Origin: Moesziomyces globuligerus | Lineage: Eukaryota > Basidiomycota > Ustilaginomycetes > Ustilaginales > Ustilaginaceae | Assembly (NCBI GenBank): GCA_030849465.1 | Contig: JARVLF010000010.1 | Span: 1-64,000 of the forward strand | DNA: 64,000 bases | Direction: 5' to 3' | In this document: positions 1-15,123 of the stretch, piece by piece | How the letters are laid out: each line of letters opens with the position of its first letter | Position numbering within the stretch: the first letter of the stretch is position 1 | Position numbers and translations under genes: made by a program | Notes under the pieces: model-generated | What the model was told of the DNA's origin: nothing | Seen by the model: the letters and a program-made list of their open reading frames with translations, nothing else | Databases searched by the model: none

Positions 1-503
1 ATCCGTCGCTGCCCTCAAAGTTCGCCCGCAACACCGCGGGACCGACCGTCTCGCCATCTGCCTGCGCGCGAATATTAAGAAGGCGAACGCAGCGGTCACA
101 GAGGCGTTCAACCGTCGCAGGAGCGACGGCTCGTTCCGCCGGGGGGACCTGGTACTCCTACGATCCAAGCACCTACGCCTCGACCGACCCAGCCGTAAAC
201 TCTCCAACCCGCTGGCGGGCCCGTTCAACGTGGAGGAAGCACGGGTCGGGAGTCGCGGCCTCCTACCGCCTCAAACTTCCGCCGTCGTGGAAAGTTACAA
301 CAGGTGTTCAACGCTCCAAATGTTCAGAACCGTTACCCCGACGGGGCCCGAGTAGTCATCCGACGCCCCCCAAGTCGCAGCTCGGGTGGAAGAAGACTAT
401 GCCGACTACGAGGTAGAGGCAATCACGAACTCGCGACGGCGCGCCGGGCAGCCTCCAATACCTAGTCAAGTGGGTTGGGGGGGCGGGTACACCAGCACAG
501 CTG
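1..503 (+). pseudogene. Ty3/gypsy chromovirus integrase C-terminus and chromodomain, broken
   Basis: Read in three frames, this stretch gives the end of a chromovirus polyprotein. Frame 2 has a run ending RRGDLVLLRSKHLRLDRPSR, the usual integrase C-terminal (GPY/F) module, continuing to a GPF. From about 255 the signal moves to another frame (SYRLKLPPSWKV). A chromodomain-like block follows at about 374-500 (VEEDYADYEVEAI, then LQYLVKWVG in a shifted frame). At least two frameshifts and an in-frame stop make it non-functional. The protease, reverse transcriptase and RNase H would lie left of the window. The family is known for chromodomains that direct integration. The assignment rests on motif recognition. 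Confidence 0.75.
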
Positions 504-3024
504 GACGCAAGCCAGTGACGTGGACATAGCAGCGGAACTGGTCGCGGATTTTCACCGGACGGGCACCCGTCAAAGCCGCGACCCGAACCGCGGCTAAATA
601 AGCCTGCGCCCGCGACCGCCCGTGCCACGGCGACCAGACCCCGAACGAGGTGGGCCGGCCCCCCGCCACCGCGGTCGCCCCTAAACCTAAGACGGTCGCA
701 CGCACACAAAGAGCGGACGGGGCTCAAACATATTCATTTCGGAAAACACGTCGGCTTACTCCGTCGGGGCGGTGGGGATGCGCGTCGCTCCACGCGCGCA
801 GGTTGGGCCAGAGTCGTAGCCAGGTTACGGGAGGAAGGCCAACACCGAACCCAGGGAGCGTCCGGTAAGGCTGCGCCGCCGTGGACGCGTCGCGCGCTCG
901 GTCTAGACCGACGCGACGTCGCGCAGGGTCTCCTCCCAGTCCGTCGCGGCCTCCGACAGCGCAACGAACATCACCTGGGCCCGCTCAACTGTGTGGTTTG
1001 AGCGACGGCCAGGTCCGTCGCGGGCTCAGACGGCTGGCCGCGAGTCTGGGCGCGCGTGCGACGGCGCTTTCTTGCGCCGCCTCGGGCGGTCGGTTCGGCT
1101 CGGGGAGCGGGCGCGGCGGCGGGCACGCACGCGCTCGCGCGTCCGCCTCGCTGGCGGCCTCGACGTCCCGACGGAGCCCCTCCTCAGCCAAGAGGATAGC
1201 TCCCCGACCGTTTTGGCCGACAGCTTGATGTTGGGGTTGGGGCGCCGGCGTGCGCCCGTCCCCGTTTCGCCCGCCAGGGGTTTCGGCGAGCTGCGAAGCG
1301 TAGACCCGCGATGAGCAGAGGGCGAGTCGCCACAGTCATTTTGGGCACTGAGGCCCGGCTGGCAAAAAGGGAACACAAGGCAATGGAGTTACGCGCCACG
1401 CCACGAGAGCCGACCGACAACGACCAAAGTCACTTACCCGTACATGTCGTAGTCGCACGGTACGCCGTGCCCGACGGTTGCAGCGCCGGCACTCAGCGCG
1501 GATTGCCGGGCAAGCGGGGGACGCACTCCTCGCCCGCCTTGACGCAGGCGAAACAATCGCCCCACGTCCCCTCCCACAGCCACGGCAGCTCCTCGCCCAC
1601 GACGTCTGGGCGCGATCATGCTCCTCCGGAGGAGCAGCCTCCGCCCAAAGGGTGCCGGCCGGCGCCCACGGCGCGAGGCCAAGCCGCGGGGACGCAGCGG
1701 GAAACGGCGGGCGCACTGCGGCTGGGGGATGGGGACCTCGGGATGCTGGGCGGCGGGCGGGTGCGGCGGCTAGGAGGGGTGCTGGCCGGACGGGCCACCG
1801 GCGTCATCGCGTCGTCGCCATCGGCCTCGTCGTCTTCGTCGTCTATCAAAAAAAAACCGGCCTCATCGGAGGTCAAGTTAAAGACCAGACCGAACCAGAC
1901 AGGTCCCGACCGACTCACCAACCACGGTGACGGGCCACCGGAGAAGCGCGCGCGCCAGCCGAAGCGGGCTACGAAACGACGTCTAGAGCAGGCCGACGCT
2001 GAGGAGGGGGCGCCCCGCGTGCAGGCTAGACGGACGCGCGGCTGCACGTCCTCGGGCAGCGCGCTGCGTCCCGCTGGTACGGCGCGACGCCTGTCGCGGC
2101 CGCGGCGCGGCTCGGCGGGGCGCGAGGGGCCAGTCGTAGGGGCGCGACGGGGCACTGTGGGCACCCAGTCGGCAAAGCGGGCAGTGTCGGCCCACCCAAT
2201 CTACAGACTAAGGAGGAAAGGCAAAGCGACGGGGTTCAGCGGAACGTCCCGGCAGACACTACGACAGCACGGACTTACCCGAGATGTGGCAGTTAAGCGA
2301 TGTTGTTGCCGCACGGGGAAGGGGAAAGGGGAGGGCGAGGACCGCCGGGCGCGTCACCGACCGTCGTACCTGTCCGCCGCCATCCACCACCAATTAGCAC
2401 CTCGACCGTCAGCTCCGAACCAACGCCGACGGAGCACCACGAGGCAAATATACTCACCGTCGCCCATCGCGAAATCGCCGTCGCGGTTCGTCGTCGTCGC
2501 GCTAGAGAGCGCGCCGGGCGGGCCGGGGCGGACGGGTAAAGGCCCGACGAGATAAGGGTATCGAGGGGAGGGGGGAGGCGACATGGTGAAAGTTGGGGAG
2601 ACGGGAGAGACGGTGTGGACTGTACTCGCGGTCGTCTTATATCCTTTCCACGAAGGGGGGTGAGACGGGGTGGGTGTGCACAAATGCTGGTAGCGCAGGA
2701 CCCCGTCGTGTGCCAGCGCCGGCTGGCACAAAGCTCTCATTGGTGCGCTTGCGGTTTCTCGGCTCGGCGAACAAGGTTGAGATGATGGGAGAGCGGGTGC
2801 CGCAATTAAAGGGTGCGCGCAGCTCCGCCGACATGAAAGCCGGCGGCTCGCGGAGATTAGCTCGGTGTCACGCGGCGATCTACGGCGTGACACGCGTCTG
2901 CCGCCGCAAGGCGCGAACCGTCCGAGATGCGTCGACCGTCCCCCGGCCGCAAACATATTGTTGGCCGCGACGCCAGACCAGCAAGCGCTGCCGGGCCGTA
3001 GTCGCTCTCGCGGACAAGCGACTC
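504..3024 (+). other. GC-rich 3' interior of chromovirus copy 1, no coding assignment
   Basis: About 2.5 kb separates the broken chromodomain from the 3' LTR, which is long for such an element. Open frames exist here but have arginine-rich, low-complexity translations in several overlapping phases, as expected for GC-rich non-coding DNA. The part from about 1,665 onward is clearly homologous, though diverged, to 3,804-5,039. Shared landmarks are a poly-A-like run (about 1,848 and 3,932), the string CACGGTGACGGG (about 1,923 and 4,003) and GCTCCGCCGACATGAA (about 2,822 and 4,844). This shows it belongs to the repeat family. Confidence 0.55.
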
Positions 3025-3041
3025 GGGCGGGCGGGGGGGTG
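3025..3041 (+). other. Polypurine tract of chromovirus copy 1
   Basis: A G-rich tract (GGGCGGGCGGGGGGG) ends a few bases before a TGTCA terminus. This is the position expected for the plus-strand primer of an LTR retrotransposon. The second copy has the same arrangement at 5,040-5,056. Confidence 0.6.
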
Positions 3042-3045
3042 TTAA

Positions 3046-3368
3046 TGTCACGGGACCCCCAACTCCGCCCGGCCCGCGAGTACACGGTCGGCCCCTCCCG
3101 GCCGATGAGCGTGTTAACGCTACTGGCGGCTGGAGGATCAGGCGACAAACGACAGACTTCTTCTCGCGCTTCGCCCGACGGGGGTTGTCTACGGACCCCG
3201 TCGCATGTATTACTTCTGTCGCTCTAGAGCATTAGCAGTGCCGTGCCCCGACCTCCGCGACGCACCGTCGCGCAGCTTACTGACTCCGTCACTCTCAGAT
3301 CTCATCCCCGGGCGACCCCGACCGACCGTAGCCGGCCCTGCGGTACCCTGACCCTACGGTTCTAATCA
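3046..3368 (+). repeat. 3' LTR of chromovirus copy 1
   Basis: The segment begins TGTCACGGGACC and ends GGTTCTAATCA, about 323 bp. The copy at 5,060-5,370 is homologous along its length: both have a CTTCTTCTC block, CCGTCGCATGTATTACTTCT, and a shared end CGGTACCC.GACCCTACGGTTCTAA. The TG..CA ends and the upstream polypurine tract support an LTR. The 5' LTR is outside the window, so target-site duplication cannot be checked. Confidence 0.7.
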
Positions 3369-3683
3369 CTACCTAACCCTATACAATAACCCTAGGAGCT
3401 GGATTCCCTCCATGACCCCTTGAGCCTACCTTCCTGAAACTATGCATACTGCCTTCTTTCAGCATTATAAGCATCTTTCATTTAGACACTCGGCAAGATC
3501 CAAGCACTTTTTGAAGAACCCCGTTTTGCCACCAGGCCAAATTTCTTCGGCTCATATCTCCGCAAACCTACTGTTAAACTTGAGTGGGGTTCAGCATGGA
3601 ATATGCTCAATCGGGACCTAAAGTACCTATAAAACATCATAAAAAGAGGTGGTCAAATCCCAACCCCAAGGGGCGCTACCTTG
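3369..3683. other. AT-richer orphan segment between LTR and telomere array
   Basis: About 315 bp with clearly lower GC than its neighbours. Its left part contains degenerate telomere-like words (CTAACCCTA, ATAACCCTA) directly after the LTR. No protein, tRNA or repeat family was recognised. It joins directly to the TAACCC array. Confidence 0.5.
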
Positions 3684-3803
3684 TAACCCTAACCCTAACC
3701 CTAACCCTAACCCTAACCCTAACCCTAACCCTAACCCTAACCCTAACCCTAACCCTAACCCTAACCCTAACCCTAACCCTAACCCTAACCCTAACCCTAA
3801 CCC
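3684..3803. repeat. Interstitial telomere array, 20 x TAACCC
   Basis: Twenty perfect TAACCC units (120 bp) in the orientation expected for a left chromosome end. The right flank reads CCACGGCGAGG, so on the other strand the chromosomal side ends GTGGGG and then continues TTAGGG. This is a typical telomere-seeding junction. The array cuts chromovirus copy 2 in its interior. Confidence 0.95.
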
Positions 3804-5039
3804 CACGGCGAGGCCAGTTGCGACCGACGCAGCGGGAACGGCGGGCAGAGCGGCGACGGGCGGAGCGCTGGCCGACGGCACCGGCACCATCGCGACGTCA
3901 CCATCAGCCCCGTCGTCATCATCGTCTATCAAAAAAAAAAAAGGACACAGCGAGGTCAGTAAAGGCCCGACCAAACAAAACGATCCCGACCGACTTACCA
4001 ATCACGGTGACGGGCACCGGAGAAGGGCGCGCGCCAGCCGACGCGGACAAACGAGCGCCGGCCGATGCAGGGGACCGAGCGCCAGCCGACGCAGACGAAG
4101 AAGCGCCCCGCGACGCAGGCAGACGGACGCGCGGCTGCACATCCTCGGGCAGCGGCGCGTCCCGCTGGTAGGGTGCGGCGCGCGCGGCCGCGGCGCGTCG
4201 CGGGCGCGAGGGGCCCGACGAGGGCGCGACGGGCGTGGGCGCCCAGTCGGCCAAGCGAGCAGGGTCGGCCCAGTCTAGGAGAAAAGGCAAGACGGGGGGT
4301 TAGCGACATTCCGGCAGACACCACGACAGCACGACTTACCCGAGATGTGGCAGTTGACGCCGCCGGGGAAGGAGAATGGAGCGGGCGAGGCCGCCGGGCG
4401 CGTTGCCGCCGTTGTACCTGTTGCCACCACCACCACAAAAGCCCGACCGTCAGTCGCGCAGCCCAACCAACGCCGACGGAACACCACGGCGCAAGAACAC
4501 TCACCGTCGGCCATCGCGACATCGCCGTCGCGACCGTCGTCGTCGTGCTGGAAGCGCGCCGGGCAGGCGGGAGGGTAGAGGCCCGACGCAAAAGGGTAAC
4601 GAGGGGAGGGGGGAGGCGACATAGTGAAGGTTGGGAAGACGAGAGCCGGGGTGGACGTACTCGCGGTTGTATATATCCCCTTCCGAGGGGGGGGGGGGCG
4701 ACGGGTGGGTGTGCACAAAGCGTGCGCACAACGTGCGCGCCGCGCGCGTTCGCACAAAGCGCTCATTGGTGCGCTTGCGGTATCTTGCTCGCAAACAAGG
4801 TTGAGATGATGGGAGCGCGGTGCGCAATAATGGGTGCGCGCAGCTCCGCCGACATGAAGCCGGCGGCTCGTGGAGATTAGCGCGGTGACACGCGGCGATC
4901 AACGGCGTGACACGCGCCTGCCGCCGCAAGGCGCAACCGTCCGACCCGTGACCGACCGACCCCCGGCCGCCACCAACTGTGGTTGCGACGCCCGACAGCA
5001 AACGCTGCCGGGCCGCCGTCGCTCGCGGACAAGCGACTT
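3804..5039 (+). mobile_element. Chromovirus copy 2, interior, 5'-truncated at telomere array
   Basis: This is homologous to about 1,665-3,024 of copy 1 and lies in the same orientation. The left end abuts the TAACCC array, so the 5' LTR, gag and pol are gone. Near 4,028-4,123 there is a 24-bp tandem repeat that reads as RAPADA-type octapeptides in one frame. No intact coding frame was recognised. Confidence 0.6.
4028..4123 (+). repeat. 24-bp tandem repeat in chromovirus copy 2
   Basis: About four imperfect units of the type GAGCGCCAGCCGACGCAGAC plus a short spacer, which translate as repeated RAPADADK-like octapeptides. Copy 1 has only about one such unit at the equivalent place (near 1,950-1,995), so the repeat expanded or contracted between copies. 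Confidence 0.5.
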
Positions 5040-5056
5040 GGGCGGGGGGGGGGGGG
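5040..5056 (+). other. Polypurine tract of chromovirus copy 2
   Basis: GGGC followed by 13 G residues, then TAA and the LTR start TGTCAGG. Position and composition match copy 1. Confidence 0.6.
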
Positions 5057-5059
5057 TAA

Positions 5060-5370
5060 TGTCAGGACCCCCAGCTCCGTCCGACCCGCAGTACGCGGTC
5101 GCGCCCTCCCGGCCAAGAGCGCAAACGCTCCCGGCGGCGCGACCAGGCGCGACCGACAGACTTCTTCTCACGCTCGCCCGACGGGGGTGGTCTACAGACC
5201 CCGTCGCATGTATTACTTCTGTCGCTCTATAGCAATAGCAGTGCCGTGCCCCGACCACCGCGATGCACTGTCGCGCAGCCTACCGACTCCGTCACTCTCA
5301 GCCTCTCCTCCCCGGCCGACCCCGACCGACCGTAGCCGCCCTGCGGTACCCAGACCCTACGGTTCTAACA
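5060..5370 (+). repeat. 3' LTR of chromovirus copy 2, inserted in the zinc-finger gene
   Basis: Begins TGTCAGGACCCC and ends GGTTCTAACA, 311 bp. It is the counterpart of 3,046-3,368. The base after it (5,371) begins CCGCACTGGCATGC, which in intact copies B and C (about 10,792 and 13,826) is the middle of the zinc-finger coding region. The LTR end therefore marks an insertion into that gene. Confidence 0.75.
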
Positions 5371-5510
5371 CCGCACTGGCATGCAACCAGCCCAACAGCA
5401 GCAGCAGCCTCCTGACTGACGTGTGCACCGCTGTGCGCCTTGCGCAAATGATTGGTGATGTTTGTTGCCGCATAGGAGAGACCGCAAACAGGGCAGGTTG
5501 TCCGTGACAT
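5371..5510 (-). pseudogene. Zinc-finger subtelomeric gene copy A, 5' fragment interrupted by LTR
   Basis: Only the first 46 or so codons remain: ATG at 5,510, the C2H2 finger CPVCGLSYAATNITNHLRKAH and the start of the second finger. The next base is the end of a chromovirus LTR. The protein read across the LTR is not a continuation of the family. The fragment matches copies B and C apart from its early end. Transcription would run toward the telomere. Confidence 0.85.
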
Positions 5511-5859
5511 ATTGGCTGGCGGAGGGGAGTGGGTGATGTGATGGGCATTGACGGGTGCACATCTCTGCTACTTGCCCTTGACAGTCTCCCTTTTGTAGCT
5601 GACCGTCTCTCTGACTGTAGCGGACTGTCTCTCTGACTGTAGTGGACCGTCTCCATTTTTGAAGCAGACCGTCTTTATTTCTGAAGTGGACCGTCTTGAT
5701 TTTTGAAGCAGACCGTCTTGATTTTTGAAGCGGACTGTCTTCCTGTGAAATTCAATGCGTCAGATTTTTGAATTGGACCGTCTTTCATGAGGGCAGACCA
5801 GGGACCGCTGGATGCCGAGCGCGTCCAAAAGTTGGAAACCCACTGTCAAAAGGATCTGG
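5511..5859 (-). repeat. Leader/promoter repeats of zinc-finger module A and boundary GGATCTGG
   Basis: Upstream of the copy A start there are about seven imperfect units of 20-23 bp, typified by GACCGTCTTGATTTTTGAAG, with variants ending CTGACTGTAGTG. They are followed by a unique block (about 5,745-5,850) and the boundary octamer GGATCTGG at 5,852-5,859. Equivalent leaders lie upstream of copies B, C and D. Their constant position before the start codon suggests promoter, leader or protein-binding repeats. Function is inferred. Confidence 0.7.
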
Positions 5860-5918
5860 AACCCTAACCCTAACCCTAACCCTAACCCTAACCCTAACCC
5901 TAACCCTAACCCTAACCC
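5860..5918. repeat. Interstitial telomere tract, about 9.5 units
   Basis: AACCCT repeats directly follow the module boundary GGATCTGG and end CTAACCC-AAGGCG. Read on the other strand, the inner chromosomal DNA ends CTTGGG and continues as TTAGGG, again the form of a telomere-seeding junction. Confidence 0.93.
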
Positions 5919-6730
5919 AAGGCGAGTTTAAAAACCGCCTGGTAACCCCCTTTGCTAGGCGAGTTTAAAAACGCACCTGGACAGGCTCTTTGCTTGGCAA
6001 GTTTAAAAACCACCTGGACAGGCACTAACCTACCTGGACATGGCCAGCAGACCTTAGTCCAATTGACCAAACAGCCATTGTGCTGCCAGGCAGGTTTAAA
6101 AACCCACCTGGACAGGATCTTTGCTTGGCAAGTTTAAACCCGCCTGGACAGGCTCTTTGCTCGGCAAGTTTAAAAACCCACCTGGACAGGCGCTAACCTA
6201 CCTGGACATGGCCAGCAGACCTTAGTCCAATTGACCAAACAGCCATTGTGCTGCCAGGCAGGTTTAAAAAACCCACCTGGACAGGCTCTTTGCTAGGCGA
6301 GTTTAAAAACCGCCTGGTAACCCTCTTTGCTCGGCGAGTTTAAAAACGCACCTGGACAGGCTCTTTGCTTGGCAAGTTTAAAACCCACCTGGACAGGCGT
6401 TAACCTACCTGGACATGGCCAGCAGACCTTAGTCCAATTGACCAAACAGCCATTGTGCTGCCAGGCAGGTTTAAAAACCCACCTGGACAGGATCTTTGCT
6501 TGGCAAGTTTAAACCCGCCTGGACAGGCTCTTTGCTCGGCAAGTTTAAAAACCCACCTGGACAGGCGCTAACCTACCTGGACATGGCCAGCAGACCTTAG
6601 TCCAATTGACCAAACAGCCATTGTGCTGCCAGGCAGGTTTAAAAACCCACCTGGACAGGCTCTTTGCTAGGCGAGTTTAAAAACCGCCTGGTAACCCTCT
6701 TTGCTCGGCGAGTTTAAAAACGCACCTGGG
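5919..6730. repeat. Subtelomeric higher-order tandem repeat, about 374-bp period
   Basis: The basic motif is GGCRAGTTTAAAAACCCACC followed by TGGACAGGCTCTTTGCT, about 37 bp. Motifs are arranged in blocks with a longer insert (GGACATGGCCAGCAGACC...CCATTGTGCTGCCAGGCAG). The whole pattern repeats at 374-375 bp: equivalent points lie at about 5,952, 6,327 and 6,701, giving two full periods plus ends. The TTTAAA cores make it locally AT-rich. The short open frames inside are repeat artefacts. It lies directly inside a telomere tract and downstream of the dioxygenase gene. Confidence 0.85.
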
Positions 6731-6801
6731 TTTGCACCTGGGTTTGACAATTGGACCACGGTCTGCTGGCCAACCTGGTTCACCAAACTGGTTTGCTGCT
6801 G

Positions 6802-7782
6802 TTACTGGCTTGCTAGTAGTGCGTCTAGTCTGTCACCAGCAATGATACTCAGTGGCTTCTCGTTGAAGATGCTCTGCCGGAAGAATCCACTGAATGCCCA
6901 CCGTGCATCCCCATTGCCACCAGCTTGGAGGGAGCGGTGGAAGCATGTGTGTGAGTTGAGCACAAGAATGGTGTGCGGCTCCACCCTGATGCTGACTCCA
7001 AACTGGGGAAGCGCAAGCAATGCCGGCTCTCCAAAGTTGAAGAGAAGCGACGGTATGCAGTCAAGATCATCACGGTGAACCCCACCGTCAGAGGGGAAGC
7101 CCGTGAAGAAGGCAACTGTGGTCCACCACGGATGCAGAAGCTCCGTGCTCTTTCCAAAATAGCTCTCTAGCCACCTGCGGTGCGGCGCTCGAGCAGCAAG
7201 GCTACTTGCAAAGTCCGTGTTGATCTTGTCTTTGAGTGTCGTCAGCACCAGCTCGGCATGCTGCCTGGTCCACCACAGCAATGCAAAGGCTTCATCACGG
7301 TACTTGGGGTTGGTGGTCTCAGATGTGAAGCCCAGGCTGACTTCCCCCCGGCTGTGCCAGATCCCCAGATGATGCTCGACCAGGTTCCGCTTGTTTTTGT
7401 GTATGGCACTCCGTGTTGCCTTTCCTGTCTGCGTGGTCTTCTTGGCCAAATAAGCGTCAAGGAGGATCCTGCCGGCCTTGGAGCTAGCTTTTGCCTTCCG
7501 ATGCACTTCCCAGGATGTTGGAGCTAGCCGTTGTACTATCACCTTGTGGTTGCTGCCGTCCATGAGTGTGAGATTGGGAACAGCACATCCGGGCCGCGGC
7601 TCTCCGATGACTTGAAGCTGGGTACCCTCGGTCCAGTGCTCCTTCTGCCAGCCAGGTATGGGATCCACGGTGATTGCAAGTTCCTCCTGCTTGCTTTGCT
7701 GGTATAGTTGCCGTTGAGCTGCTTCACGGACCTTCCTTGCCGTCTTCTTGCGGGCAATTGCTTCAGGTGTTTTTGCTGGCAT
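6802..7782 (-). CDS. TET/JBP-like 2-oxoglutarate/Fe(II) dioxygenase
   Basis: 326 codons from ATG at 7,782, the first methionine below the 89-bp repeats; an in-frame upstream extension would be repeat-encoded. The N-terminus is basic (PEAIARKKTARKVREAAQR). The C-terminal half has a double-stranded beta-helix pattern: GGVHRDDLD with the HxD pair at H236 and D238, a strand containing LLFNFGEPALL, a second metal histidine probably H282 (CFHRS), and RWAFSGFFR with a candidate 2-oxoglutarate arginine (R294 or R302). Fungal TET/JBP families share the HxDxxD..NFG layout; several are carried by mobile elements, and some relatives oxidise 5-methylpyrimidines in DNA. Substrate here is inferred only. It lies 330 bp downstream of zinc-finger copy B on the same strand. 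A non-nucleic-acid 2OG oxygenase is the alternative. Confidence 0.72.
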   Translation of the reverse strand: MPAKTPEAIARKKTARKVREAAQRQLYQQSKQEELAITVDPIPGWQKEHWTEGTQLQVIGEPRPGCAVPNLTLMDGSNHKVIVQRLAPTSWEVHRKAKASSKAGRILLDAYLAKKTTQTGKATRSAIHKNKRNLVEHHLGIWHSRGEVSLGFTSETTNPKYRDEAFALLWWTRQHAELVLTTLKDKINTDFASSLAARAPHRRWLESYFGKSTELLHPWWTTVAFFTGFPSDGGVHRDDLDCIPSLLFNFGEPALLALPQFGVSIRVEPHTILVLNSHTCFHRSLQAGGNGDARWAFSGFFRQSIFNEKPLSIIAGDRLDALLASQ

Positions 7783-7802
7783 GTTGACGGATGGAGATGA
7801 GA

Positions 7803-8043
7803 CGGGGGTCCCGTCTCCAAACTCAACTTTCCTGAGCCAAAGTGAAAATTTTGATGCGGTACCCCCTCCACCTGGAAAGAGCGCGCCCATCTGGGGGTAC
7901 CGCCTCCAAACTCAACTTTCCCAAGCCAAAGTGAAAATTTTGACGCGGTACCCCCTCCACCTGGAAAGAGCGTGCCCATTGGGGGTACCGCCTCAAAATT
8001 CCAACTTCCCCTGCCAAAATGAAAATTTGGACACGGTACCCCC
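7803..8043 (-). repeat. 89-bp tandem repeats with inverted GGGGGTACCGC arms
   Basis: About 2.7 units with a period near 89 bp, with equivalent ACTCAACTTT blocks at 7,821 and 7,910. The spacers are bounded by opposed arms GGGGGTACCGC and GCGGTACCCCC, about 65 nt apart, so each unit could form a hairpin or bind a dimeric protein. On the minus strand each full unit also contains TCTTTCCAG-G, a 3' splice-site-like word, just upstream of the dioxygenase start. It lies between zinc-finger copy B and the dioxygenase and may be the promoter, leader or intron of the latter. Confidence 0.75.
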
Positions 8044-8112
8044 AGCTCTCATCCAGCTCACCCGGACCACTGTTCAGCTTGCACAAACACACGTGAACAA
8101 AATGATATTCTC

Positions 8113-10929
8113 CTACTGCCTAGAGTGTGTCAGCACCTCGTATCCATCACCCATAAGCTTGACAAGGCCCACATATGGCCCAACGCCGCCAACCGGAATG
8201 ACCTGGCAGGACCACGCTCTGCGCAGAAGCATGAGGTGGGCAATGTGAGTGTTGAACGCACCTGCCACACCGTGCAGCAGCAAGACCTCCTCCTCCGTGC
8301 TGAGCTCTGCATCACGCACAGCCAGCTTGTTGATGCAGGCATGGACAGCAACCCTGCTCCGTGCACCAATGTGATGCTCCACTGCCAGAGTGTTGTCCCG
8401 CAGCCAGTCTGTTGCTGCCTCCTGGATCTCAATGGGACCTGGCCCACCGTGTTGATCTTCCAACGCAAAGGAGAGGCACTCCAGCATGGACTCGCGCATG
8501 CTGGCAAACTCATGCGTGCGGACAAGACCGCTGAGGTCCCTCCGCTGGCTGAGCTTGCGGACAGCTTGGTCTGCAGGTATGCTTGCAAACAGCAGCCGTG
8601 CTGGATCCACAATGAGTGTGCTGAGGTCAACGCCCAGCTGCCGGTTGAATGCCAGCGTGGCAATGTGCATGCGGAATTTCTGCGCGCCAAGGGTGGCTCG
8701 GCACTCAGTGCAGCGGATGCGGAACTGATGGGCACCTCCACAGAGGATGTACGTGCCCACGCGCCGGCAACCCTGGCACCGCAGGTGGATTTGAATGTGC
8801 CCAAACAAATTCTTGGTCCGCTTGGGCGTGCTGAACCGCTCCAGCTCTTGCGCCAGATCCACCGCAGCTTGGTTGGACACCCACCATGCGGTGGGACTGT
8901 CCAGCGCTGTGGGCCGTCTGCCTGGATGCCAACCCATTGCATTGTACAGGTCCACCACGGCTTGCCGCTGCAGCCGTGTGGACTGCTTGCTGCTGTTGCC
9001 CCGGAAGAGCTGCTTCTGCTCTGCAACAGCAAGCAGCACGTCAAGATCCCTGAACATGTCTTCTTTCTTGATGGTGTGCGTCAGCAGCTGCTGCACTCCT
9101 GCTTGTGCGGTGAACAGGTAGCGTGGATCAAGGAAGCGGCTTGCCTTTGCCACTTGCTGCGCCTCCTGCATGGTGGCCGCTTGCACGGTGAGCTCCAGCC
9201 GGATGCCGCTGCCCACCTCTGGTGCTGTGCCAGAGACGCGCTCTTTCCACCTCTGCAGTGTGGCAATGCGGTCTTTCACCGTCTTCATGATCATCGGCTG
9301 ACCTCCCTGCCCGGCACCTGCTGCTCCGGCTTTGAGCAGGTGCGTGAGTTTGGAATATGCCTTGAAATGGGAAATTCCATCTGCACGGTGAGTCCACTGC
9401 AGCTCCACACTGCCAAAACCACGGCCAACACGCAGAGCGCTGGGATACTGCTTGTAGCCGCCCTTCTTTGTTTTGGGTGCAAGCAGCGTGACGTGGCCTG
9501 TGTCCACCGTGCAGCCAATGTCAAACACATTGAACGCCTGCATTGGATGCTCTGCTAGCGCAGCTGGATCCAGGAAGCGGTGGATGGGCACCTTGAAGCC
9601 GTACGCACCCATGCGTACACTCTGGCAGCCTATGTCCTGCAGTGCCTCCACCAGGATGCTGATCTCCACCCGCAGCTCTCCAAAGGTGAGCGTCTTGGCG
9701 TGTTCAGAGGGGACAAGGATGGCGTGTTGTGGTGGTCCCTGCAGCCGTGCTACAAGGGGGAGCTTGAACTGCGGTTCAAAGCGGAAGACCACCTTGAGCT
9801 CGGCAAAATAGACCCAATTGTCAAAGACGTGCATGTCCTTGAAATCAGGTGCATGGCTGATCAAGGACGCGTAGCAGCCAGCTGGAAAAATCTGAAGCAT
9901 GCTGGCAGGAGAAATTGTCACCGCAAAGGAGTCCACATCCGTGTGGACAGGCACGTCCCAGTTGGAAATTGGTGCCATGGCTGGGATAGGCGGGAGTTCT
10001 GGAAGCTGCTCCCCTGTGTCCAGCACCAGCTGGGGTGCAGACGGTGCTTCTGCCTCCTCCTCAGCGGTGTCAAGAGCAGGCAGCAGTACCACAATACCGT
10101 CTGCTGGCATGTCTTGAACATCTTGCAGCTCTGGCGTATGCTGGGGACGTGCTTGTGTTGGTGCCGCAGGTCCTTCTTGGGGAAGGTACGGTAGCGTCTC
10201 TCTGTCTTCTTCTCCATCCGACTCCTGGTCAGAGTCCGTGTTGGTGTCAGGTCCATGTGGAGATAGGCTGGGCACAAGACCAGGAGACACGTCAATTTCC
10301 AGGGAAATGTCCATCTCCAGTCCGTCTCTGTCTCCGTCTCTGTCTTGCCCAGACTCTGGTTCTGGATCCACGTCTGGCTCCTGCTCAGAATCAGAGCCGT
10401 GTGTCTCTGCTGGAAAATCCAAGATTGGGCTCAGAGGCAGGCTGGGCACCAGACCAGAAGACGCGTCAATTTCCTGGAAATTCTCCTCCTCCACATCTGC
10501 CTCTGTGCCTGTTGCCTCCGGGGCCAGTGGTGAGCTGTGGGACGGTGATGCTGTGTGCACGGGTGCTGGGCTTGCACTTGGAGGCGGCAGCGGGGCCAGA
10601 GCCTGCGCCAGCGCTGATGCAGCTGCCACAATGACGGCTGCTGCCTGCTCTGCCGGTGCTGATTCTGACTGTGCTGGAGCAAAATCTTCTGCTGCTGCAG
10701 CTACTGCTGCTGTTGGCTGGGACCGTACACCCTGGCACTTACGGATACCCTGGTGCTTGCGCAGTGCCGCAGCATTCACCACTACCTGGCCGCACTGGCA
10801 TGCAACCAGCCCAACAGCAGCAGCAGCCTCCTGACTGACGTGTGCACCGCTGTGCGCCTTGCGCAAATGATTGGTGATGTTTGTTGCCGCATAGGAGAGA
10901 CCGCAAACAGGGCAGGTTGTCCGTGACAT
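8113..10929 (-). CDS. Zinc-finger subtelomeric protein, copy B (longest copy)
   Basis: 938 codons from ATG at 10,929. Residues 6-26 form a C2H2 finger (C6, C9, H21, H26). Residues 44-65 form a second Cys/His cluster (C44, C46, H59, C65). Residues about 75-330 are Ala/Pro/acidic and disordered. The rest is globular with no family I can name. A CxxC..CxxC ribbon lies near residues 715-745. The two N-terminal fingers resemble those at the front of OrsD-type domains, which are known in fungal telomere-linked helicase genes, but I see no helicase Walker or DExH motifs. It may be a stand-alone protein, or the front part of a longer spliced gene. A rich upstream repeat leader and three truncated sister copies (A, C, D) surround it. 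Role unknown; DNA binding at chromosome ends is inference. Confidence 0.75.
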   Translation of the reverse strand: MSRTTCPVCGLSYAATNITNHLRKAHSGAHVSQEAAAAVGLVACQCGQVVVNAAALRKHQGIRKCQGVRSQPTAAVAAAAEDFAPAQSESAPAEQAAAVIVAAASALAQALAPLPPPSASPAPVHTASPSHSSPLAPEATGTEADVEEENFQEIDASSGLVPSLPLSPILDFPAETHGSDSEQEPDVDPEPESGQDRDGDRDGLEMDISLEIDVSPGLVPSLSPHGPDTNTDSDQESDGEEDRETLPYLPQEGPAAPTQARPQHTPELQDVQDMPADGIVVLLPALDTAEEEAEAPSAPQLVLDTGEQLPELPPIPAMAPISNWDVPVHTDVDSFAVTISPASMLQIFPAGCYASLISHAPDFKDMHVFDNWVYFAELKVVFRFEPQFKLPLVARLQGPPQHAILVPSEHAKTLTFGELRVEISILVEALQDIGCQSVRMGAYGFKVPIHRFLDPAALAEHPMQAFNVFDIGCTVDTGHVTLLAPKTKKGGYKQYPSALRVGRGFGSVELQWTHRADGISHFKAYSKLTHLLKAGAAGAGQGGQPMIMKTVKDRIATLQRWKERVSGTAPEVGSGIRLELTVQAATMQEAQQVAKASRFLDPRYLFTAQAGVQQLLTHTIKKEDMFRDLDVLLAVAEQKQLFRGNSSKQSTRLQRQAVVDLYNAMGWHPGRRPTALDSPTAWWVSNQAAVDLAQELERFSTPKRTKNLFGHIQIHLRCQGCRRVGTYILCGGAHQFRIRCTECRATLGAQKFRMHIATLAFNRQLGVDLSTLIVDPARLLFASIPADQAVRKLSQRRDLSGLVRTHEFASMRESMLECLSFALEDQHGGPGPIEIQEAATDWLRDNTLAVEHHIGARSRVAVHACINKLAVRDAELSTEEEVLLLHGVAGAFNTHIAHLMLLRRAWSCQVIPVGGVGPYVGLVKLMGDGYEVLTHSRQ

Positions 10930-11328
10930 ATTGGCTGGCGGAGGGGAGTGGGTGATGTGATGGGCATTGACGGGTGCACATCTCTGCTACTTGCCCTTGA
11001 CGGTCTCCCTTTTGTAGCTGACCATCTCACCAACTGTAGTGGACCGTCTCTCTGACTGTAGTAGACCGTCTCCATTTTTTAAGCCGACTGTCTCTCTGAC
11101 TGTAGTGGACCGTCTCCATTTTTGAAGCAGACCGTCTTTATTTCTGAAGTGGACCGTCTTGATTTTTGAAGCAGACTGTTTTGATTTTTGAAGCGGACTG
11201 TCTTCCTGTGAAATTCAATGCGTCAGATTTTTGAATTGGACCGTCTTCCATGAGGGCAGACCAGGGAGCGCTGGATGCCAAGCGCGTCCAAAAGTTGGAA
11301 ACCCACCGTCAAAAGGATCTGGAACCCT
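10930..11328 (-). repeat. Leader repeats of module B and boundary GGATCTGGAACCCT
   Basis: Same organisation as 5,511-5,859. GACCGTCT-type repeats occupy about 10,998-11,205, then the constant block containing GCGTCCAAAAGTTGG, then GGATCTGG (11,315-11,322) and one AACCCT unit (11,323-11,328). The next base belongs to the interior of zinc-finger copy C, so the boundary is fused directly to a truncated gene. Confidence 0.8.
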
Positions 11329-13963
11329 CCGTGCTGAGCTCTGCATCACGCACAGCCAGCTTGTTGATGCAGGCATGGACGGCAACCCTGCTCCGTGCAC
11401 CAATGTGATGCTCCACTGCCAGAGTGTTGTCCCGCAGCCAGTCTGTTGCTGCCTCCTGGATCTCAATGGGACCTGGCCCACCGTGTTGATCTTCCAACGC
11501 AAAGGAGAGGCACTCCAGCATGGACTCGCGCATGCTGGCAAACTCATGCGTGCGGACAAGACCGCTGAGGTCCCTCCGCTGGCTGAGCTTGCGGACAGCT
11601 TGGTCTGCAGGTATGCTTGCAAACAGCAGCCGTGCTGGATCCACAATGAGCGTGCTGAGGTCAACGCCCAGCTGCCGGTTGAATGCCAGCGTGGCAATGT
11701 GCATGCGGAATTTCTGCGCCCCAAGGGTGGCTCGGCACTCAGTGCAGCGGATGCGGAACTGATGGGCACCTCCACAGAGGATGTACGTGCCCACGCGCCG
11801 GCAACCCTGGCACCGCAGGTGGATTTGAATGTGCCCAAACAAATTCTTGGTCCGCTTGGGCGTGCTGAACCGCTCCAGCTCTTGCGCCAGATCCACCGCA
11901 GCTTGGTTGGACACCCACCATGCGGTGGGACTGTCCAGCGCTGTGGGCCGTCTGCCTGGATGCCAACCCATTGCATTGTACAGGTCCACCACGGCTTGCC
12001 GCTGCAGCCGTGTGGACTGCTTGCTGCTGTTGCCCCGGAAGAGCTGCTTCTGCTCTGCAACAGCAAGCAGCACGTCAAGATCCCTGAACATGTCTTCTTT
12101 CTTGATGGTGTGCGTCAGCAGCTGCTGCACTCCTGCTTGTGCGGTGAACAGGTAGCGTGGATCAAGGAAGCGGCTTGCCTTTGCCACTTGCTGCGCCTCC
12201 TGCATGGTGGCCGCTTGCACGGTGAGCTCCAGCCGGATGCCGCTGCCCACCTCTGGTGCTGTGCCAGAGACGCGCTCTTTCCACCTCTGCAGTGTGGCAA
12301 TGCGGTCTTTCACCGTCTTCATGATCATCGGCTGACCTCCCTGCCCGGCACCTGCTGCTCCGGCTTTGAGCAGGTGCGTGAGTTTGGAATATGCCTTGAA
12401 ATGGGAAATTCCATCTGCACGGTGAGTCCACTGCAGCTCCACACTGCCAAAACCACGGCCAACACGCAGAGCGCTGGGATACTGCTTGTAGCCGCCCTTC
12501 TTTGTTTTGGGTGCAAGCAGCGTGACGTGGCCTGTGTCCACCGTGCAGCCAATGTCAAACACATTGAACGCCTGCATTGGATGCTCTGCTAGCGCAGCTG
12601 GATCCAGGAAGCGGTGGATGGGCACCTTGAAGCCGTACGCACCCATGCGTACACTCTGGCAGCCTATGTCCTGCAGTGCCTCCACCAGGATGCTGATCTC
12701 CACCCGCAGCTCTCCAAAGGTGAGCGTCTTGGCGTGTTCAGAGGGGACAAGGATGGCGTGTTGTGGTGGTCCCTGCAGCCGTGCTACAAGGGGGAGCTTG
12801 AACTGCGGTTCAAAGCGGAAGACCACCTTGAGCTCGGCAAAATAGACCCAATTGTCAAAGACGTGCATGTCCTTGAAATCAGGTGCATGGCTGATCAAGG
12901 ACGCGTAGCAGCCAGCTGGAAAAATCTGAAGCATGCTGGCAGGAGAAATTGTCACCGCAAAGGAGTCCACATCCGTGTGGACAGGCACGTCCCAGTTGGA
13001 AATTGGTGCCATGGCTGGGATAGGCGGGAGTTCTGGAAGCTGCTCCCCTGTGTCCAGCACCAGCTGGGGTGCAGACGGTGCTTCTGCCTCCTCCTCAGCG
13101 GTGTCAAGAGCAGGCAGCAGTACCACAATACCGTCTGCTGGCATGTCTTGAACATCTTGCAGCTCTGGCGTATGCTGGGGACGTGCTTGTGTTGGTGCCG
13201 CAGGTCCTTCTTGGGGAAGGTACGGTAGCGTCTCTCTGTCTTCTTCTCCATCCGACTCCTGGTCAGAGTCCGTGTTGGTGTCAGGTCCATGTGGAGATAG
13301 GCTGGGCACGAGACCAGGAGACGCGTCAATTTCCAGGGAAATGTCCATCTCCAGTCCGTCTCCGTCTCCGTCTCTGTCTTGCCCAGACTCTGGCTCTGGA
13401 TCCACGTCTGGCTCCCGCTCAAAATCAGAGCTGTGTGTCTCTGCTGGAAAATCCAAGATTGGGCTCGGAGGCAGGCTGGGCACCAGACCAGAAGACGCGT
13501 CAATTTCCTGGAAATTCTCCTCCTCCACATCCGCCTCCGTGCCTGTTGCCTCTGGGGCCAGTGGTGAGCAAGGAGACGGTGATGCTGTGTGCACGGGTGC
13601 TGGGCTTGCACTTAGAGGCGGCAGCGGGGCCAGAGCCTGCGCCAGCGCTGACGCAGCTGCCACAATGACGGCTGCTGCCTGCTCTGCTGGTGCTGATTCT
13701 GACTGTGCTGGAGCAAAATCTTCTGCTGCTGCAGCTGCTGCTGCTGTGGGCTGGGACCGTACACCCTGGCACTTACGGATGCCCTGGTGCTTGCGCAGTG
13801 CCGCAGCATTCACCACTACCTGGCCGCACTGGCATGCAACCAGCCCAACAGCAGCAGCAGCCTCCTGACTGACGTGTGCACCACTGTGCGCCTTGCGCAA
13901 ATGATTGGTGATGTTTGTTGCCGCATAGGAGAGACCGCAAACAGGGCAGGTTGTCCGTGACAT
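11309..13963 (-). pseudogene. Zinc-finger subtelomeric gene copy C, 3'-truncated at module boundary
   Basis: 884 codons from ATG at 13,963. It matches copy B up to residue 879 (..RDAELSTE), then five codons of boundary sequence (GSRSF) and a stop. The loss removes the last 59 residues of copy B. Nucleotide identity with B is very high. All ten amino-acid differences I found lie in residues 76-214, the disordered linker. The open frame could still be translated, so it may not be inert. The breakpoint on the coding strand is GAGCTCAGCACGGAGG followed by GTT, a G-rich end suited to telomere seeding. Confidence 0.8.
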
Positions 13964-14340
13964 ATTGGCTGGCGGAGGGGAGTGGGTGATGTGATGGGCA
14001 TTGACGGGTGCACATCTCTGCTACTTGCCCTTGACGGTCTCCCTTTTGTAGCTGACCATCTCTCTGACTGTAGCTGACCGTCTCTCTGACTGTAGCAGAC
14101 TGTCTCTCTGACTGTAGTGGACCGTCTCCATTTTTGAAGCAGACCGTCTTTATTTCTGAAGTGGACCGTCTTGATTTTTGAAGCAGACCGTCTTGATTTT
14201 TGAAGCGGACTGTCTTCCTGTGAAATTCAACACATCAGATTTTTGAATTGGACCGTCTTCCATGAGGGCAGACCAGGGACCGCTGGATGCCAAGCGCGTC
14301 CAAAAGTTGGAAACCCACCGTCAAAAGGATCTGGAACCCT
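13964..14340 (-). repeat. Leader repeats of module C and boundary GGATCTGGAACCCT
   Basis: GACCGTCT-type repeats occupy about 14,034-14,215. The constant block follows, then GGATCTGG at 14,327-14,334 and AACCCT at 14,335-14,340. AGCCCTGG follows, in which the telomere-like unit runs into the truncated end of zinc-finger copy D. Confidence 0.8.
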
Positions 14341-14524
14341 AGCCCTGGTGCTTGCGCAGCGCCGCAGCATTCAGCACCACCTGGCCGCACGCGCATGCCA
14401 CCAGCCCAACAGCAGCAGCTGCCTCCTGGCTGACGTGTGCACCCTTGTGCGCCTTGCACAGATGGTTGGTGATGTTGGTTGCCGCATAGGAGAGATTGCA
14501 GACCGGGCAGGTTGTCCGTGACAT
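14341..14524 (-). pseudogene. Zinc-finger subtelomeric gene copy D, diverged 5' fragment
   Basis: About 60 codons from ATG at 14,524, covering both N-terminal zinc clusters, cut at ..ALRKHQG. It differs from A, B and C at several positions in this short stretch (CNLSY for CGLSY, HLCKAHKG for HLRKAHSG, CACG for CQCG), so it is an older lineage than the near-identical B and C. The coding-strand end CACCAGGG meets CTAGGGTT, i.e. a telomere-like unit. Confidence 0.8.
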
Positions 14525-14850
14525 GTTGACGGGCTGGGGCTGGTGATGGGCAATGACAGGTGTGCGCCGCTCTTGCTGTCTACCAGGCCCCCTTTTGTAG
14601 CTGACCGTCTCTCTGACTGAAGTAGACCGCCTTGATTTTGAAGCGGACCGTCTCCCTGGGACGCTCAGCGCGCCAAGATTCTGAAGTAGACCGTCTTGAT
14701 TTTTCAAGCGGACCGCCTTGGATTTTTGAACTGGACCGTCTTCCTGGGAAATTCAGCGCGCCAGAATTTTGAACTGGACCGTCTCTCCTCAGGGTGGTGG
14801 GGGGAGCGCGCGCGTCAAAAGTTGGTGAACCTACCAAAGAACAGATCTGG
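14525..14850 (-). repeat. Leader repeats of module D and boundary AGATCTGG
   Basis: A diverged version of the module leader with GACCGTCT-type repeats at about 14,597-14,790. It ends AGATCTGG at 14,843-14,850, the octamer differing from the others by one base. This is the innermost module. Confidence 0.75.
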
Positions 14851-14868
14851 AACCCTAACCCTAACCCT
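14851..14868. repeat. Innermost telomere-like tract, three units
   Basis: AACCCTAACCCTAACCCT follows module D and joins unique chromosomal DNA (TATCCGAAATTC). On the other strand the chromosome side reads GGATAAGGG then TTAGGG. It probably marks an ancient chromosome end, and everything to the left was added later. Confidence 0.85.
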
Positions 14869-15123
14869 TATCCGAAATTCACGAGCACCACGGATCTACA
14901 AGTACGACTGTACACGCGTTACGTGTGAATCCGCATAACACAGACGACGTCAAGCACGCTTCTCTCACACTTGTTTGGCAAAGGAGTGTTGGTGCATTAC
15001 TGGAACGGGTATTCTCCACAAGCTCGGGGATGCCCCTGAAAGAGGCGGGATTTGCGGACGCTGTCCCCTTCGCCCTACCGCACGAGGCGCGGCCAAGGGG
15101 ACCTTGAGCGTCGATCCGACTCC
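14869..15123. other. Junction between subtelomere and core chromosome, no gene seen
   Basis: About 255 bp of unique sequence with no recognised feature. It contains the 3' flank of the CSC1-type gene. Confidence 0.6.

Follow-up and report, generated by a model that had tools for sequence, protein, structure and literature searches.

TET/JBP genes are already known from fungal mobile DNA. Kojima (2025; PMC12730594, cited here from excerpts, as are the other papers) described them in 11 lineages of DNA transposons from Pucciniomycotina, Agaricomycotina and Pezizomycotina; the TET-bearing elements comprise KDZ, hAT7, PHISTA, IS3EU, EnSpm, ESTA, Plavaka and Helitron, and the genes are thought to work against methylation. 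According to the same excerpts, action of such an enzyme on the 5mC of its own element has not been settled by experiment. In the text of that paper the string 'Ustilag' is absent and 'telomer' occurs twice, at least once in the reference list. Repeats of another kind, Y' and TLH/UTASa, are multicopy, subtelomeric, telomere-bordered and stacked, are truncated at their outer ends and encode helicases, and excerpts of two papers on smut telomeres describe RecQ helicase repeats (PMC4466345, PMC10532341). The retrotransposon MoTeR forms stacked copies with short telomere tracts between them and leaves relics that are truncated at one end and carry a vestigial telomere at the other; its arrays have been explained partly by repair induced by telomere attrition (PMC8381367, excerpt).

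Here we describe a telomere element in the window, i.e., the whole analysed stretch of 64,000 nucleotides of DNA, from a Ustilaginaceae-type fungus. Like the TET-bearing DNA transposons, it is fungal mobile DNA with a predicted TET/JBP-type gene, but those carry transposase or Helitron proteins, whereas we found neither such a domain nor terminal inverted repeats here; its host is a smut relative, and its copies lie at chromosome ends. With Y' and TLH/UTASa it shares the multicopy subtelomeric state, the telomere borders, the stacking and the outer truncation, but in place of a helicase its genes specify a C2H2-like protein and a TET-type dioxygenase. In geometry it resembles MoTeR and perhaps the telomeric retrotransposon FoTeR, yet no reverse transcriptase match was found in either conserved ORF or in five ORFs of the plus strand, of which four lie opposite the C2H2-like ORF and one opposite the dioxygenase. 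Known telomere-linked repeats carry helicases or reverse transcriptases, whereas this element carries a gene for a candidate DNA-methylation eraser and shows CpG decay of its own; it would thus link the study of transposon anti-silencing with that of chromosome-end dynamics. Among the titles and abstract openings listed from the open-licence literature, there was no telomere element with a TET/JBP gene.

Architecture and distribution of the telomere element

The preliminary description had placed the gene in a subtelomeric repeat module, and the gene is indeed multicopy and lies inside a 5.4-kb subtelomeric element (Table 1). Toward the telomere, the element consists of a GGGTT vestige, CCAGATCC, 22-bp repeats, the C2H2-like ORF, 89-bp repeats, the dioxygenase, 37-bp repeats and telomere repeats. 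At the inner boundary of the complete copy (11322), GGGTT is followed directly by CCAGATCC, and at the outer boundary (5919/5918) CTCGCCTT is followed directly by (GGGTTA)n. The window holds four stacked copies, the most diverged of which is the innermost; this fits copies having been added successively at the chromosome end. A position between telomere tracts, as described earlier, applies on the telomere side, where two tracts are present, but not on the other side, where only vestiges were found (GGGTT at 11322, TAGGGTT at 14334 and about three repeats at 14850). Similarly, the gene order downstream of a supposed zinc-finger gene is correct, whereas the finger itself is only a sub-threshold C2H2 match.

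Table 1 Coordinates of the element, its stacked copies and the adjoining telomere tracts in the window
Feature	Positions	Strand	Remarks
Second telomere tract	3684..3803		20 repeats; lies outside the element, within subtelomeric sequence
Outermost truncated copy	5371..5859	-	Keeps the 22-bp repeats and, from the start of the C2H2-like ORF, 140 bp that are 100% identical
Telomere tract adjoining the complete copy on its outer side	5860..5918		
Complete telomere element, 5404 bp	5919..11322	-	Module mapping and boundaries
Distal stretch	5919..6801		37-bp repeats arranged as 375-bp units
TET-type dioxygenase ORF, 326 aa	6802..7782	-	H236, D238, D241, H282, R294, R302
Inter-ORF stretch	7783..8112		About 2.7 copies of the 89-bp repeat (7804-8043)
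938-aa ORF	8113..10929	-	N-terminal C2H2-like finger, conserved in Ustilaginaceae
22-bp repeats	11000..11206		Upstream of the C2H2-like ORF
Truncated copy	11323..14334	-	C2H2-like ORF cut after query residue 881, 99% identical
Innermost, shortest and most diverged copy	14335..14850	-	Start of the C2H2-like ORF, 90% identical

The fungus's own genome was searched with both ORFs; the match counts are lower bounds, and the contig ends are not necessarily all chromosome ends. The 938-aa ORF gave at least 49 matches, at 25 of 48 contig ends; each of the 49 listed is found no more than 16 kb from a contig end and is oriented outward. For the dioxygenase there were at least 36 matches. Fifteen contig ends hold 17 close ones (94-100% identity); the others listed are four diverged interior relatives and 15 short matches that stem from a repeat-derived extension of the query. 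Source-named homologues of the 938-aa ORF were found in Ustilago trichophora (73%), Ustilago sp. UG-2017a and Kalmanozyma brasiliensis, so the fungus most probably belongs to Ustilaginaceae. A homologue of the dioxygenase, P0008, and one of the 938-aa ORF, P0016, come from the same source and are both listed with a longest contig of 4724 bases, which suggests that the C2H2-like/dioxygenase pair may be linked elsewhere as well.

We mapped 32 inner boundaries, a subset of the copies that includes some duplicates within arrays. GGGTT immediately precedes CCAGATCC or a near variant in 29 of them, and the sequence in telomere phase is 1-65 bp long, with less than 15 bp in 22/32. What lies inward of this boundary varies. 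On C14, C17 left and C1 right, for example, it is sequence unrelated to the element. Elsewhere it is part of another copy, broken off within the C2H2-like ORF (C10, C12, C16), within the dioxygenase (C19 right) or within the 22-bp repeats (C16, C19 left), and on C2 and C10 it is an outer end that is complete and retains the telomere tract. At the outer ends on C5, C12, C8 and C16 the dioxygenase or the distal repeats are broken at varying points, and telomere repeats follow directly or after a few bases. These junctions and the genomic distribution show that this is a telomere-bordered multicopy element.

The 938-aa ORF contains no convincing transposase, helicase or replication domain, and transposase and Helitron Pfam families were absent from 12 of its relatives and from the five plus-strand ORFs of the element. 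One dioxygenase homologue matched DDE_Tnp_1 with an E of 0.06, which we took as chance. There was no RecQ or DEAD helicase match in the dioxygenase or the 938-aa ORF, no inverted repeat pair of 14 nt or more connects the two ends of the element, and Rfam gave no match in positions 1-15000. A retrotransposon reading, prompted by the MoTeR-like geometry, was dropped, as no reverse transcriptase was matched in the two conserved ORFs or the five plus-strand ORFs. Transposases and helicases went unmatched in these ORFs too, and the ends do not form inverted repeats, so that the simplest route would be copying through break-induced replication by the host.

Some further features of the chromosome ends were observed. 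At the right end of C15 (2416089-2426612) seven truncated copies form a tandem array with a spacing of 1556 bp, and at the left end of C16 (5161-10770) three truncated copies are spaced by 1995 bp, as if a truncated unit had multiplied there. On C17 left, the sequence inward of the element (L026) reads like the end of an ORF and by eye resembles an OTU-type domain of another mobile element. Positions 1-3683 and 3804-5370 of the window are of a second, GC-rich subtelomeric sequence type with related repeats in L003, L006, L015 and L040; at several ends a repeat of about 190 bp of this type begins right after telomere-type sequence.

Family, active site and constraint of the dioxygenase

The dioxygenase ORF is intact on the minus strand, with ATG at 7782, a stop at 6802 and 326 codons. 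The frame can be extended N-terminally to 7890, but this extension is probably not used, because it lies within the 89-bp repeats and the start methionine of the 326-aa protein is the first residue in 8 of 10 database homologues. These ten homologues share 40-61% identity with it, the source-named one being UTRI_02572 of Ustilago trichophora. Seven of the 17 close matches in the own genome are full-length and the remainder are cut. The 326-codon frame is open in all seven; the copy on C17 has a stop codon in the extension, outside this frame, and a truncated copy on C5 has one internal stop. The four interior relatives (C19:661230, C16:626561, C13:635955 and C9:362787; L017, L019, L029, L030) lie 78-627 kb from contig ends, are 27-41% identical over the matched parts and are possibly host genes or old relics. 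In L019 the aligned row ends at the column of R294, where the DNA has a stop codon.

To place the protein, we aligned 15 sequences (the window protein, the ten database homologues and the four interior relatives) and compared the resulting profile with 177,635 distinct PDB sequences. The matches at E ≤ 10 were confined to Naegleria TET (NgTET; 5cg8, E 7.1e-7; 4lt5, E 8.2e-7) and the algal TET homologue CMD1 (7cy4, E 0.84), and other 2OG enzymes were absent; an earlier 13-row profile had given 1.1e-4 and 1.2e-4 for Naegleria TET and 0.22 for CMD1. The matches span only the core, about 55-75 positions, and the N-terminal half of the protein has no known match. As a single query against the PDB, the window protein found nothing, and its homologue P0003 only an unrelated match with an E of 1. 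Pfam and NCBIfam gave no reliable match for the dioxygenase. PF12851 (Tet_JBP) matched neither the window protein nor anything in the own genome; one of eight members matched it at E 0.068, and TauD did better with one of eight at E 0.015, both below the cut-off, so that no member reaches the Tet_JBP cut-off. For PF20515 (2OG-FeII_Oxy_6) there was no match in the window protein (E ≤ 1) or in the own genome, in a genome search that was silent for 14/14 controls too. The assignment to TET/JBP-like enzymes made earlier thus stands on the family profile, which put the protein with TET enzymes and in no other 2OG family, and we consider membership in the TET/JBP superfamily very likely. Since ten homologues exist, the frame is open in 7/7 full-length copies and NgTET is matched at E 7e-7, the ORF is more than a chance reading frame.

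The residues on which the preliminary description had relied (the HxDxxD motif, a second histidine and arginines) are conserved: H236, D238, D241 and H282, together with N249, are invariant in 15/15 rows, and R294 and R302 are nearly so (≥90% of rows). In the profile search H236, D238 and H282 align with the metal-binding HxD and His of NgTET, which by index arithmetic we take to be H229, D231 and H279, and they form the predicted metal site. R198 is invariant as well; TET enzymes have a second 2OG arginine, R224 in NgTET and R1261 in TET2. NgTET and CMD1 share with the dioxygenase the HxDxxD...H core and the arginine after the second histidine, R294 aligning with CMD1 R410, the equivalent of the 2OG-binding NgTET R289. 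CMD1 additionally shares the arginine eight residues further on: R302 aligns with CMD1 R418, where TET2 and NgTET have His, position 300 (mostly Phe) aligns with CMD1 F416, and the whole RW..S.F.R run resembles CMD1 R410-R418. In contrast, N249 occupies the position of CMD1 W358, a residue said to exclude 2OG (PMC7854593). D241, three residues after the Asp of HxD, aligns with the residues that make the contact to N4 of 5mC in NgTET (D234), CMD1 (D350) and TET2 (N1387), and in the CMD1 structure an Asp at this base-reading site accommodates cytosine and excludes thymine (PMC7854593). Because D241 suits cytosine and not thymine, 5mC is the likeliest substrate. The excerpted description of fungal TET types (PMC12730594) gives HxE for type PE, whereas the dioxygenase has HxD in 15/15 rows, and Asp337 with Gly/Ser331 for type AG (CcTET-like), whereas the dioxygenase has L247 and D241 by ungapped counting from HxD, the CcTET positions being taken from their description.

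Constraint on the two ORFs was estimated from their genomic copies. The C2H2-like ORF is clearly constrained, with 54 replacement and 58 silent changes in eight copies (p 5e-6), and 39 and 45 in five copies (0/20,000 simulations as low). Seven copies of the dioxygenase differ by eight replacement and eight silent changes, with about 11.5 replacements expected; from the copies alone, constraint is marginal (p 0.059, or 0.047 with CpG-aware classes). Omega is about 0.4 for both ORFs (about 0.38-0.40 for the dioxygenase), and the stronger argument for constraint on the dioxygenase is its conservation across relatives.

No relatives of the dioxygenase were found in phage records or IMG/VR. An unnamed phage family of PHROGs, phrog_24024 (433 positions), matches 5 of 15 members of the dioxygenase family with a best E of 1.9e-4, and in a rescan of eight members P0004 and P0008 matched it weakly over the core (E 0.03 and 0.07). 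This phage family may represent a TET-like enzyme.

CpG depletion of the element and methyltransferase genes

The observed/expected ratio of CpG was 0.54 in the element, versus 1.05 and 1.07 for the window core, of which two parts were measured. In 1-kb windows, it was 0.398-0.613 in the element (n = 9), whereas core windows (n = 96) never fell below 0.857 and had a median of 1.08; TpG + CpA was raised (1.49 in the element vs 1.12). The interior relatives of the dioxygenase were not depleted (0.90-1.37), so low CpG does not characterise the gene family as such. Both ORFs of the element had fewer CpGs than their synonymous-codon shuffles (43 against 60.6 and 133 against 184.9), with two host genes near expectation. 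Transitions among copies fell at CpG in 10 of 11 cases for seven dioxygenase copies (CpG bases 89/981 sites; Fisher 2e-10) and in 41 of 67 for five copies of the C2H2-like ORF (298/2817 sites; Fisher 2e-24), p-values that are optimistic because the copies share history, and that are favoured somewhat by scoring a site as CpG if it was CpG in any copy. That low CpG stems from nothing more than codon usage or a foreign origin was rejected, given the counts below the shuffles, the undepleted interior relatives and the changes focused on CpG. The element probably is, or once was, CpG-methylated, a reading weakened by the neighbouring subtelomeric stretches 1-3683 and 3804-5370, which are not CpG-depleted (1.19 and 1.25).

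Matches to PF00145 (cytosine-5 methyltransferase) were found at two loci, C9:51181-52580 and C19:59839-63981 (L033-L035). The C9 match falls in a 703-aa ORF, with a further piece downstream. On C19 the frame that contains the match has 2443 codons, and a frame of equal length was listed for SNF2 matches at a distance of 3 kb; DNMT5 has been described as a methyltransferase-SNF2 fusion (PMC13297926, excerpt), and the C19 gene appears to be DNMT5-like.

Proposed role of the enzyme and alternatives

Our best explanation, to which we lean without strong preference, is a Y'-like telomere element in a Ustilaginaceae-type fungus whose TET-type Fe(II) dioxygenase erases 5mC on its own DNA. Host methyltransferases would methylate CpG in the element and so silence it, and the dioxygenase would oxidise this 5mC to 5hmC or further, so that some copies stay expressed. 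An eroded end with a few telomere repeats would pair with the vestige at an inner boundary and copy everything outward by break-induced replication with host enzymes, and the dioxygenase may be guided by the C2H2-like protein, through binding of the latter to DNA of the element or the telomere. For the central step, an enzyme that works against silencing by acting on 5mC in its own element, we put the chances a little better than even. This eraser reading is weakened by the CMD1-like R302 and the unmatched N-terminal half, by the sub-threshold Pfam scores, the marginal selection on the dioxygenase and the undepleted subtelomeric stretches nearby, and also because CpG decay of the element continued despite the enzyme.

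That continuing decay would fit a passenger gene, the element spreading purely by host telomere recombination as Y' and TLH do and the TET-like gene being irrelevant to its upkeep. The boundaries and truncations are such as telomere-attrition repair gives without any element enzyme (PMC8381367, excerpt), and only 7/17 close matches to the dioxygenase are full-length. Against a passenger stand the 326-codon frame, which is open in every full-length copy, an omega of about 0.38-0.40 and the retention of all active-site residues among relatives, and we regard this explanation as rather unlikely. The enzyme could also perform another chemistry or serve the host, by forming a glyceryl-type base with ascorbate as CMD1 does, by acting on 6mA, which is also a substrate of CcTET (PMC12730594, excerpt), or by setting a host mark at chromosome ends. 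R302 and the CMD1-like run around it, where TET2 and NgTET have His, speak for CMD1-type chemistry, but N249 is invariant where CMD1 has the tryptophan said to exclude 2OG, the Gly331/Asp337 pair of CcTET is replaced by D241/L247 (ungapped counting from HxD), and the mutation scars indicate 5mC at CpG; such an activity seems improbable.

The preliminary description had further suggested an element- or telomere-associated DNA modification, with reference to JBP; in a JBP-like form the enzyme would hydroxylate thymine or modify the telomere repeats at chromosome ends. The gene does adjoin telomere tracts and is distantly akin to the TET/JBP superfamily. The JBP-like form is nevertheless very improbable: D241 suits cytosine and not thymine, diverged relatives lie as far as 78-627 kb from contig ends, and the decay is CpG-specific and lies on the element, whereas TTAGGG contains no CpG.

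If the own-5mC reading is true, DNMT5-type marks on the CpGs of the element would be converted to oxidised cytosine by the element's own TET-type enzyme. A more far-reaching form of it is tentative, and we hold it to be possible rather than probable: the element would represent a telomere element of a new class, able to persist at chromosome ends through its own C2H2-guided 5mC eraser, the opened ends staying expressed and recombination-prone while telomere-primed copying adds copies. The enzyme, its base pocket resembling that of CMD1, would then add a fourth type to the fungal TETs. The own-5mC question is testable in a single genome, which has 25 element-bearing contig ends, some with the enzyme gene kept and some with it lost, and the two methyltransferase loci. 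Ustilago maydis has been reported to be without DNA methyltransferases (PMC7862722, excerpt), so the idea of an arms race could be tested across species too; the fungus studied here, a relative of this species, has two loci with methyltransferase matches.
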